NCBI GenBank assembly: GCA_937904325.1 | Contig: CALGTK010000126.1 | Coordinates: 1 to 50,847, forward strand | Length of the DNA stretch: 50,847 nucleotides | Direction: 5' to 3' | DNA from: an uncultured Planctomyces sp. | Lineage (GTDB): Bacteria; Planctomycetota; Planctomycetia; Planctomycetales; Planctomycetaceae | Shown: positions 43,533-47,123 of the stretch, in pieces | Position numbering within the stretch: position 1 is the stretch's first letter | How the letters are laid out: the number at the start of each line of letters is the position of its first letter | Notes under the pieces: model-generated | Seen by the model: the letters and a program-made list of their open reading frames with translations, nothing else | The model's database searches: none | What the model was told of the DNA's origin: nothing | Program-made: the position numbers and the translations under genes

Positions 43533-45785
43533 TTATTCGCCAGCGGTCGGGATCGCCGGAACCGGCAAACTCTGGAGCAGCTCCGTTACTCGCAGTGGAG
43601 TCGGTTTCAATGAGCCGACTACTGAAGCGAGAGCGGTTCTGAGCGGCCCTGCTGGAGCCCCTTGCCAGGCGAGTTGAACTTCCTGCACTCTCGATTTTGA
43701 CAGCAGAACTCCGTACCGCTGAATATGAAACGCAAGCTGCAGGGAGGCAATTTCGCGGAGCGATTCGTCGCGAACATCGCTGACGACGATCTCCTGCAAT
43801 CGTTCCTGCGAGCTGGAAGTTGCAATGGCCCCCAGAGCGATGAGGGCGTTTTCTCCGACGCCTGGATCATTGACCGCGTCGAACAAGGCGTCTTCAGCAG
43901 CATCAATGTTGAATGTATCGGTACGGCGTCCGCCAGCGATGTGAGCAAACCAGAAGCCGGCAGCGCTAGCCCGTTCAGCTCGCTGTTTCTCACTGACTGG
44001 TGGAGTTCTGAGCCGACTCAGAAATGTTCGAATTCCCTGCTTGAACGATGTTTCACCGTTCAGAACGAAGCCGATCATTGGAAACTGCTCTGCAATTCGA
44101 GCAACGGATGGCTCAACCGATTCCGGTCCGTAGACAACAATCGGAATCCCTGATGTTCGCGCGTCGGCTCGAAGGTTAACAATCGTCTGACCTAGTCCCC
44201 ATCGCACTACCGCTGCGTGAATCACGATCAACTCAATATCACTGCGGTCGGCGGCGATTTTAAATCCATTCTGGCCGGTGGTTGCCTGTAAAGGAGCCAT
44301 GCCCATTTCACTGAGCAAACCTGCCATCGATGCACCACGTTCCTGATTAGAATCAATCGCCAGGCCTTGTCGGTCACCACTGTCGTTGAGAGCTCGAGTC
44401 AGGATTGAAACAATCCTCGAAGCACCGCGAAACGACTTTTCCGGATCAAGCTGCAGCACTGCCGAGGCCGCGGCAAACTGAACTCGGAAGTTTGGATAAC
44501 TCATTGCCTGGATAATCGGCGACGCTTGCCCGAAACGATCACGAAGCTGAGCTCGGTTTCCAATTTGCCCCAGCACCTGCAATGTCGCCAGAGCGGCGGA
44601 AGGGTTGGGGTTCTGTAGCGAGTACCCCAACGCGTGAAGTGCAATTTCTGGCCCTGCGAGAAGAGCGAGATCGTGAGCAGTGCCGGGGCCCGTAGGTAGC
44701 CCGGCATTCCAGCCAGCAACGTGCGCGTCGAAAGCCAGTCTTAGCGAAAGATAAAGTGACTGCACTTCCTGTCGCTCTGGAGCCAGCGTGAGTGCTTGTC
44801 GTGCGAAACGGCTTCCCACGATGAGCGACGCCGTTTCCGGCGCGATGTTCCACGCGGAAAGTGAATTCTGCTGAGCGGACCACGACCACAGTTCAGTGGT
44901 GGCGCCGTCGGCGTTCATCTTCCAGTTGTATTCGAGCCGGAAGTGAGTCGTCGCAATTTTCTGAAGTTGCGAAGCCGCTCCGTAGCTGCTGATGTCGCCC
45001 GCTCGCTTAACGTCGTCGCGAAGAATTCGGGCAAGTGCCTGGCGTGCTGATTGCCGAACGCCAGTTGGCTGATCGGAACCGAATGCCGGGTACCACAGCC
45101 AGGGCACGGTATCGTGTGAACCCAGCCAGCCAAGCGTGTCGATGGCGACGGTTCTGATTCCTTCATCCGGAGCTTCGAGTGCGCCAAGCAGCGGAGGAAT
45201 AATCTGCGCGCCCATACGAGTCATCGCGTAAACTATCGCGTCTTTCTGGGCCGCGTCTTTCGCGGCGGAAACAAGTGTCAGCATCCTGGGAATCGCAGCC
45301 TTGCCGGTATTGCGAAGCTGGATGATCGCTACTTCGCGTTCCTGCGGTGTACCGGTCAGATTGTTAACGAGCCGATCCATGCGAGTCGGGTCAGCCGCAT
45401 ACCGACGGAAAGCTTCGTTCATCCGATCGAGCAACGTGATCGACGAAGGCTGCAATCGCTCATCGTTGGAAAGTTCCAGGAAGACTGCGGGACCGTGTTT
45501 GTCTCGCATCTTGAGGATCGTCGCATCGTCGGGGTCTTCGGCGAGCAGCTGCTTTACATATCTAAGAGCGAGTCCCGGCCGATCGAGATCGAGCATCAGC
45601 ACAACCGCATCGAACAACGCTTCGGGATCCTGCGGTTCGGTGAGCAGCGGAGACGGTTCAAGATCGGGCGAATTTTGCGCGACGGCATCCGTAACCGGGC
45701 TACCGGTGGGTGGCTGGGCGCGCAGTTCGATCGAAGGGCTTAACACCCCAACCAAAACTGCCTGAACAATTAACCGGCGATACAT
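43533..45785 (-). CDS. Exported HEAT-repeat protein with an embedded degenerate receiver domain
   Basis: A 750-residue protein. The signal peptide ends at LRAQPP. Most of the length is HEAT/PBS-lyase-like helical repeats (VAIIQLRNTGKAAIPRML, GIRTVAIDTLGWLGSHDTV, ALATLQVLGQIGNRAQL). Residues about 474-592 read as a CheY-like receiver: QGLAIDSNQERGASMAGLLSEMG, then ELIVIHAAV, TIVNLRADARTSGIPIVVYG and MIGFVLNGETS. All functional residues are replaced: the acidic pair is D478-S, the phospho-acceptor is His523, the Thr/Ser is Tyr, and the Lys is Asn. It cannot act as a normal response regulator and is in an exported protein. ATG 45785 is preferred because GGAG lies 9 nt upstream; an ATG two codons earlier is possible. 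No kinase is nearby. Role unknown. Confidence 0.82.
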   Translation of the reverse strand: MYRRLIVQAVLVGVLSPSIELRAQPPTGSPVTDAVAQNSPDLEPSPLLTEPQDPEALFDAVVLMLDLDRPGLALRYVKQLLAEDPDDATILKMRDKHGPAVFLELSNDERLQPSSITLLDRMNEAFRRYAADPTRMDRLVNNLTGTPQEREVAIIQLRNTGKAAIPRMLTLVSAAKDAAQKDAIVYAMTRMGAQIIPPLLGALEAPDEGIRTVAIDTLGWLGSHDTVPWLWYPAFGSDQPTGVRQSARQALARILRDDVKRAGDISSYGAASQLQKIATTHFRLEYNWKMNADGATTELWSWSAQQNSLSAWNIAPETASLIVGSRFARQALTLAPERQEVQSLYLSLRLAFDAHVAGWNAGLPTGPGTAHDLALLAGPEIALHALGYSLQNPNPSAALATLQVLGQIGNRAQLRDRFGQASPIIQAMSYPNFRVQFAAASAVLQLDPEKSFRGASRIVSILTRALNDSGDRQGLAIDSNQERGASMAGLLSEMGMAPLQATTGQNGFKIAADRSDIELIVIHAAVVRWGLGQTIVNLRADARTSGIPIVVYGPESVEPSVARIAEQFPMIGFVLNGETSFKQGIRTFLSRLRTPPVSEKQRAERASAAGFWFAHIAGGRRTDTFNIDAAEDALFDAVNDPGVGENALIALGAIATSSSQERLQEIVVSDVRDESLREIASLQLAFHIQRYGVLLSKSRVQEVQLAWQGAPAGPLRTALASVVGSLKPTPLRVTELLQSLPVPAIPTAGE

Positions 45786-46358
45786 CAACATCAGCTCCGT
45801 CGATGCGAAGTCACAGCTTGATTGAAACCCGCTGTGAACACGGCGGACGAAATTTGGATTCCCGCGAAGTGCGGCCGTGTAACATGACCGGTTATCGTGT
45901 TCTGCAAATGGGGGAGAAAACAACGAAAAATAGTCATCTTTCCTGTTTTATCAGTGTGCGGTTCCGGGATTGTTCGTCGCCGGTGTCGCTTGTTGCTGGA
46001 ATGTCTGTCTTTGCAGATTTGACCGGGCGCAATATTACTGAGAAATGCACCCAATGTCTGGGTTATCGGACTCCGAGCGGTCGCCGGTCCAACCGGAAAG
46101 TGGCAGCCACCAGTCCTGCGGTGATTTTTGTCAGGAATCTTTTGTTCAAATTTGCTCTACAGTCAGACTTTTAAGCCATTTCGAGCGGCAAACAGGCCTT
46201 ATCTCGTTCCTGGTCGATCGACTAGAGTTGCGTTCCCTTCCGAGTCCGTTCAGAGACTCAATCACGCGAAAGTCGAACCACTTTCGCCAAAGATCATCAT
46301 CCTTCCTGCCACCGATGAAGCCGCAAGGTTTCCCTCATTTCTCCATTTTAGAGACTCC
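45786..46358. other. Divergent intergenic region, about 570 bp
   Basis: This region separates the HEAT-repeat gene (minus) from the lipoprotein gene (plus). Frames crossing it have no recognisable protein. A short GCCGGT-CCA-ACCGG hairpin near 46083 and AT-rich stretches near 45930 and 46130 are present, as expected of promoters, but I cannot name boxes. I see no tRNA here. Confidence 0.45.
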
Positions 46359-47123
46359 ATGATATATTCATTGCTCCGTCCGGGGTGCTCTATTGCTGCG
46401 CTGATGCTTGTGTGCACCTCCGGCTGCGCAACGACCAAGACGACAAATACGGCTCGCACCGCGACCGAGCAGCTTCTCTTGTCGAACGCGATTGATCAGT
46501 CCCTGAACAAAGTTGACTTCAGCGCAATGCACGGTCGGAAAGTGTTTCTCGACCCAGCCTATTTCGACGGAGTCGACACTCAATACGTCATTTCTTCACT
46601 GCGTCACCATCTGCTTTACAACGGTGTGTCTCTCGCCGCGACCGCCGATAAGGCCGACGTGATCCTGGAACCTCGCAGCGGCGGAATCGGCACGGACACC
46701 ACGGAGTCGTACTACGGCATTCCAGGTATTTCCTTGCCTGGTGGCATTTTAACGCTGCCCGAAATCAAACTGGTCACTCGGATGAACCAGCATGCGACAG
46801 CCAAGATTGGATTGGCTGCGTACGATGCTGACGAGCGAGAAATCGTTGGAGGAGGCATTTCGATCGCTCAGGCTCAGCACAACAACTGGCACGTGCTTGG
46901 AGTTGGGCCGTTCACAACAGGAACGATCAAGGAAGAACTGACCGCTGCGACGGGTGACGATGTTTACGATCCGTCAGCCGATCTCCCGCGAAACGTAGCG
47001 TTCGGCTCAGGTTCTTCTGGGCGGTTTGAGAATTACTCAGGCGACCAACCAAGCTTGCTGCCACCTCCTGTGCCGGAGCAATCCGAGTCGGGAATCCGTC
47101 AGACGGGTCATTCGGATCGCTAA
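46359..47123 (+). CDS. Planctomycete lipoprotein (possibly DUF6655)
   Basis: A 254-residue protein. A short Arg-containing signal ends in a lipobox with TSGC, followed by ATTKTTNTARTATEQLLLS, a conserved motif in planctomycete lipoproteins that I think is DUF6655. The protein then has FLDPAYFDGVDTQYVISSLR and ADVILEPRSGGIGTD, a mixed alpha/beta fold resembling outer-membrane assembly lipoproteins only distantly. It ends with a Ser/Pro-rich tail. The ATG at 46359 gives a normal lipoprotein signal; the long open frame upstream (to 46128) has no homology. It stands alone, about 320 bp before the HlyD-like gene. The function is unknown. Confidence 0.75.
   Translation: MIYSLLRPGCSIAALMLVCTSGCATTKTTNTARTATEQLLLSNAIDQSLNKVDFSAMHGRKVFLDPAYFDGVDTQYVISSLRHHLLYNGVSLAATADKADVILEPRSGGIGTDTTESYYGIPGISLPGGILTLPEIKLVTRMNQHATAKIGLAAYDADEREIVGGGISIAQAQHNNWHVLGVGPFTTGTIKEELTAATGDDVYDPSADLPRNVAFGSGSSGRFENYSGDQPSLLPPPVPEQSESGIRQTGHSDR

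Follow-up and report, generated by a model that had tools for sequence, protein, structure and literature searches.

A predicted exported alpha-solenoid protein of the Planctomycetota with an inserted pseudo-receiver domain, a probable docking module

Few signalling domains are as common as the receiver, which is regarded as cytoplasmic. The closest described relatives of the domain considered here are the pseudo-receivers (PsR), or aspartate-less receivers (ALR), such as the receiver of FrzS and the degenerate second receiver of PleD (PMC12632262, PMC4395418), which share with it the (beta-alpha)5 fold and an incomplete phosphorylation site, and whose working has been called a mystery in a 2025 review (PMC12632262). 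Export, signal peptides and the periplasm go unmentioned in the main text of these two reviews, and a search of the open-access literature turned up nothing relevant on receivers that are exported, secreted or periplasmic, or on HEAT/receiver proteins of planctomycetes, an absence that is no proof. Pseudo-receivers as such are known, but an apparently exported one inside an alpha-solenoid is not described in the searchable open-access literature.

The window, by which we mean the whole stretch of DNA analysed (50,847 nucleotides, from an uncultured Planctomyces sp.), appears to encode such a protein. A preliminary description had placed an exported HEAT-repeat protein with a degenerate receiver fold at 43533-45785; the coordinates are right, the strand is minus, and the HEAT_2 (PF13646) score of 63.6 bits, against a cut-off of 27.7, makes it a HEAT-repeat protein by Pfam. 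The features, in the order of the protein, are as follows.

43533..45785, minus strand: gene of the TPR/HEAT - pseudo-receiver - HEAT protein, predicted to be exported (750 aa, ATG at 45785)
45717..45785, minus strand: signal peptide, residues 1-23, MYRRLIVQAVLVGVLSPSIELRA, likely cleavage before Gln24 (from sequence and family conservation)
about residues 50-130, minus strand: N-terminal TPR-like helices preceding the HEAT repeats (weak TPR matches, Pfam)
45006..45308, minus strand: HEAT repeats, about residues 160-260 (Pfam HEAT_2 at 172-252, E 2.1e-17)
44382..44669, minus strand: second solenoid stretch, about residues 373-468, immediately N-terminal of the receiver (weak HEAT_EZ match at 434-471)
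44010..44369, minus strand: predicted pseudo-receiver domain, about residues 473-592 (profiles, AlphaFold domain model, alignments)
44124..44210, minus strand: receiver helix 3 - strand 4, residues 526-554, within the best-conserved block of the protein
43566..43988, minus strand: C-terminal helical (HEAT-like) part, about residues 600-740 (helices in the full-length model)

An in-frame TTG upstream of the ATG would lengthen the N-terminus ahead of the signal peptide, but the short ATG start, with the same hydrophobic N-terminus, is common to close homologues. The helices of the HEAT region reach a pLDDT of about 80 in the full-length AlphaFold model, and the second solenoid stretch lies within the region best matched by distant family members. 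Like other HEAT_2/TPR solenoid proteins, the window protein has the HEAT_2 and weak TPR matches listed above; it differs in having a receiver inserted inside the solenoid, with HEAT-like helices flanking both sides in most members of the family. HEAT_2 is matched C-terminal of the receiver in homologues L067, L076, and L079, while in some other members the C-terminal HEAT-like part is missing and the receiver is itself C-terminal.

As to the receiver fold, Pfam and NCBIfam searches with the protein alone miss it, Response_reg (PF00072) not being matched in the window protein even at E<=1, and the domain was recognised through homologues and profiles. Two receiver alignments were used, one of 27 close members including the window protein (A1) and one of 18 distant members without it (A2). 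Response_reg is matched by 12 of the 18 sequences of A2 (best E 2.2e-7; one listed example scores 29.5 bits, just under the cut-off of 30.2), and when the A2 profile is run against the window genome, residues ~470-555 of the window protein rank first (E 2.2e-18), above bona fide receivers. The same profile matches solved receivers in the PDB at up to 8.6e-18, PleD, CheY, and FrzS (2gkg, 2i6f) among them; the A1 profile matches CheY-type receivers at 4e-6, and the two profiles match each other with a probability of 99.5%. An AlphaFold model of residues 464-602, built with five close homologues (pLDDT 82.6, pTM 0.79), has its strands and helices in the receiver order, b1a1b2a2b3a3b4a4b5a5. CheY is the top match of this model both in Foldseek (E 2e-5) and in VIA-align (Z 15.3 over 120-121 residues, with CheY overall at Z ~15, 120-123 residues, and rmsd ~2.5 A), where every row among the matches listed is a receiver; non-receivers among the listed structural matches are limited to fusion entries. 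Profiles and domain model thus confirm, as two independent lines of prediction, a (beta-alpha)5 receiver domain at residues ~473-592, and the fold that the preliminary description had proposed was found rather than rejected. In the full-length model built with six close sequences the receiver region reaches a pLDDT of only ~35, although the domain alone folded well, and we therefore make no claim as to domain packing.

The five catalytic positions of a receiver (DD1, DD2, D, T, and K) were assigned from HMMER alignments. In the window protein DD1 is kept as Asp478 and the four others are replaced, DD2 by Ser479, the phosphosite Asp by His523, Thr by Gly553, and Lys by Asn576. The earlier statement that every catalytic residue is replaced thus holds for four of the five; its numbering of D478, S479, H523, and N576 was right, while the Thr position is Gly553 and not Tyr552. 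Among the 92 aligned family members (55 close, from Planctomycetia, and 37 distant), none has the complete five-residue site, and so the homologues support the loss of phosphotransfer chemistry. A phosphoacceptor loop is marked by Pro at D+4 and Gly at D+8 (PMC12632262); the window protein has Val527 and Leu531 at these positions, and in the AlphaFold model the beta3-alpha3 loop is gone, strand 3 (517-523) continuing straight into helix 3 (524-540). Compared with CheY and the canonical receivers (PF00072), the domain would have the same fold and topology (CheY at a VIA Z of about 15), but with DD2, Asp, Thr, and Lys replaced, the beta3-alpha3 loop lost, no partner kinase and a predicted location outside the cytoplasm. 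By the definition in PMC12632262 the domain, as read from sequence and model, is a pseudo-receiver; it differs from the PsR/ALR domains described in that it lies inside an alpha-solenoid with a signal peptide, in that its degeneracy is family-wide and ancient, and in that PF00072 no longer picks it up in the window protein.

Conservation falls instead on receiver helix 3 to strand 4. The best-conserved block of 30 in the protein is residues 526-550 (mean majority-residue frequency 0.77), and the helix 3 - strand 4 motif to which it belongs (526-554) reads W-x-L-x2-T-x2-N-L-R-A-D-x-R-T-x3-P-x3-Y-G-P, with N537, D541, R543, T544, P548, and G553 each present in 55 of the 55 close members; its R-x3-R-T-x3-P part resembles the corresponding motif of PleD. 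A patch on receiver helix 2, T503-G504-x2-G507-F508-x2-A511, is also recognised. The reading that we prefer, to which we give a probability of roughly 0.62, is that the protein is exported and serves as an alpha-solenoid scaffold with a receiver inserted in it, and that this receiver, stripped of phosphotransfer chemistry, would act as a static, permanently "on" protein-docking part, a constitutive docking module outside the cytoplasm. The docking face would be formed by helix 3 and strand 4 (W529, L531, T534, N537, R539, D541, R543, T544, P548, Y552, and G553) and would take in the helix 2 patch, and docking would be unswitched because the phosphoacceptor loop is gone in the model. The conserved helix 3/strand 4 block could, on the other hand, be structural and not a binding face.

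The best rival in the Planctomycetia is a ligand-gated extracytoplasmic sensor, in which the Rossmannoid pocket would bind a metal or a small molecule and reshape the solenoid. D478, H523, and Y552 sit at the old active site, where a His and an Asp could bind metal, and the composition of the site in the 55 close members is not random: the phosphosite is His in 25, Glu in 20, Gln in 5, and Asp in 2, Asp478 is present in 50, and Tyr/Phe552 is invariant along with Gly553. Position 479 in these members is Ser, Ala, or Pro, and position 576 is Glu in 36 of the 55. Other branches of the family have not retained these residues, however, the 37 distant members having Ser (13), Arg (9), Ala (5), or Asp (3), among others, at the phosphosite, and many of them having lost Asp478; moreover, no known ligand-binding relative is found among the matches. 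We thus consider a sensor of this kind unlikely.

The presence of a signal peptide, also claimed in the preliminary description, can be read directly from the sequence. The N-terminus MYRRLIVQAVLVGVLSPSIELRA|Q combines two arginines with a hydrophobic core and an end resembling A-x-A, that is, the n-, h-, and c-regions and the signal-peptidase site of a Sec-type signal, with R3 and Q24 kept in at least 90% of the close set. A simple, home-made signal-peptide rule is passed by 89 of 93 homologues, compared to 121 of 329 neighbouring ORFs, a background that includes truly exported proteins, and a later TM-like stretch occurs in only one of them. Of the 45 distinct other Pfam-receiver ORFs in the window genome, five pass the rule, three of these having TM-like segments and two passing only from doubtful alternative starts, so that none of the 45 combines a convincing signal peptide with the lack of a TM segment. 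These data support export of the protein as predicted from sequence, and its signal peptide would then be cleaved. The earlier proposal of a receiver re-used outside the cytoplasm thus stands as to the fold, for which profiles and a domain model speak, and as to location has the support of sequence alone.

Should the signal peptide mislead, a cytoplasmic role would become possible, with an N-terminus that does not serve export and a pseudo-receiver that would work in trans on an adjacent sigma-54 activator. NtrC-type activators normally have a receiver of their own. The activator in question (Sigma54_activat, E 6.1e-73, an AAA+ domain, with a Fis HTH) has none, and its gene comes next on the same strand in 24 of 107 Pirellulales-family genomes, representing 19 of 59 genera (it lies downstream at, for example, L109, L111, L115, L118, L121, L122, L123, and L126); the same orthologous activator is also next in families f2 (with a spacing of 3-38 bp) and f5. 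This recurrent neighbour in the Planctomycetia, being cytoplasmic, would suit a cytoplasmic partner better. Against such a role stand the signal peptide with its A-x-A-type site in 89 of 93 homologues, the lack of a sigma-54 promoter upstream of the HEAT-receiver gene in any of 98 loci, and the position of the activator in the window genome, which is on another contig (G000:C375:75534-76547), with a ccsA-like gene. Downstream of the activator come ccsA-like and hemA genes, also in genomes that carry the HEAT-receiver gene at another locus, and because these neighbours persist without it, the link of the activator may be to haem/cytochrome genes, an observation that sets back the idea of direct regulation through this linkage. 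Overall, a cytoplasmic regulator appears improbable, somewhat more so than the sensor. In the window itself, the HEAT-receiver gene neighbours a DUF6655 gene and an SSF transporter gene, an arrangement common only to the closest relatives. The DUF6655 protein (46128-47123, plus strand; E 6.4e-29), of unknown function, has a lipoprotein-like N-terminus, LVCTSGCATTK, and its gene is kept beside the HEAT-receiver gene only within the same genus.

That the domain is a true receiver which can be phosphorylated on an alternative residue is very improbable: an Asp is present at the phosphosite in L020, L054, L063, L079, and L085, but no member is complete, L067 alone has four of the residues and lacks precisely the phosphosite Asp, in the window protein the site is a His and the beta3-alpha3 loop is missing, and ATP-dependent histidine kinase chemistry is not known to occur outside the cytoplasm. 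In L079 and L085 the phosphosite Asp and the Lys are both kept, strand 3 and helix 3 are separated by a long insertion, and the signal peptide is still present. Equally improbable is a non-functional remnant drifting without selection, for while the catalytic positions all vary in distant clades and homologues without the receiver exist in genome families f73 and f78, the block of the protein that is conserved best lies in the receiver, which appears to be intact over most of the phylum.

As to the distribution of the family, which together with its genomic contexts is what is new beyond the preliminary description, a full-length profile, a match to which does not by itself prove the presence of the receiver in each genome, is matched in 163 of 170 genomes from the family of the window organism and, across the Planctomycetota, to which all the counts refer, in 314 of 392 genomes, 182 of 217 good-quality genomes, and 226 of 267 genera. 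The gene is nearly always present in one copy per genome, and no relative was found on plasmids. The HEAT-receiver family is thus an ancient, single-copy family, near phylum-wide in the Planctomycetota. The receiver-less homologues in f73 and f78 (589-637 aa; L065, L129, and L153-L157) are natural receiver deletions, showing that the receiver is dispensable in these families; one of them groups with a receiver-bearing sequence in a tree of the solenoid part, suggesting receiver loss.

For the docking reading, a partner can be named more tentatively. It would be a machine spanning the envelope, of the type II secretion/type IV pilus kind, proposed because the HEAT-receiver gene heads such a cluster in the Phycisphaerales (families f7 and f96), where 9 of 11 genomes have same-strand prepilin genes +1.5 to +2.8 kb downstream, along with genes for a GspD/PilQ-type secretin (E 1.9e-40, 8.5e-45), PilM (8.6e-30), and PilN (1e-6). 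The arrangement of the HEAT-receiver gene followed by prepilin, PilM, PilN, and secretin genes is seen at L128, L132, L144, L145, L146, L147, L149, L151, and L152. Compared with the accessory proteins of type II secretion systems and type IV pili, the family presents a predicted exported repeat protein at the head of a machine cluster in the Phycisphaerales, but no sequence similarity to a known component was found, and the gene is unlinked in the window genome: neither in the window nor in the other Planctomycetia sampled does such a cluster lie beside it. All 20 genomes tested have secretin and PilM genes, and since nine of them lack the HEAT-receiver gene, co-occurrence with it does not discriminate; the link to secretion or pili therefore comes from gene order in one order, the Phycisphaerales. 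Two further observations can be made on these genomes. In seven f7 genomes, a gene for an excisionase-type HTH fused to a normal-looking receiver lies upstream of the family gene, divergently, on the opposite strand (L132, L144-L146, L148, L150, and L151, the last encoding 281 aa). The high-quality genomes of family f46 (G216, G236, G253, G270, and G286) have no HEAT-receiver match and yet possess secretin and PilM genes, and they represent either a natural loss or a group that predates the origin of the family.

In the widest form of the docking reading, which we offer as a speculation with the odds against it, an ancient receiver was relocated to the outside of the cytoplasm in the lineage of the planctomycetes, where it may have become the docking module for a core envelope factor that serves a machine of the secretion or pilus type in almost all species of Planctomycetota. 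If this were true, a domain of two-component systems would be at work permanently on the far side of the membrane. The conserved, single-copy family would present a clean case in which predicted location and residues together exclude phosphotransfer, opening the non-catalytic use of the fold to direct study, and it would add an unannotated core protein to the envelope of the Planctomycetota, a cell plan whose parts are poorly listed.
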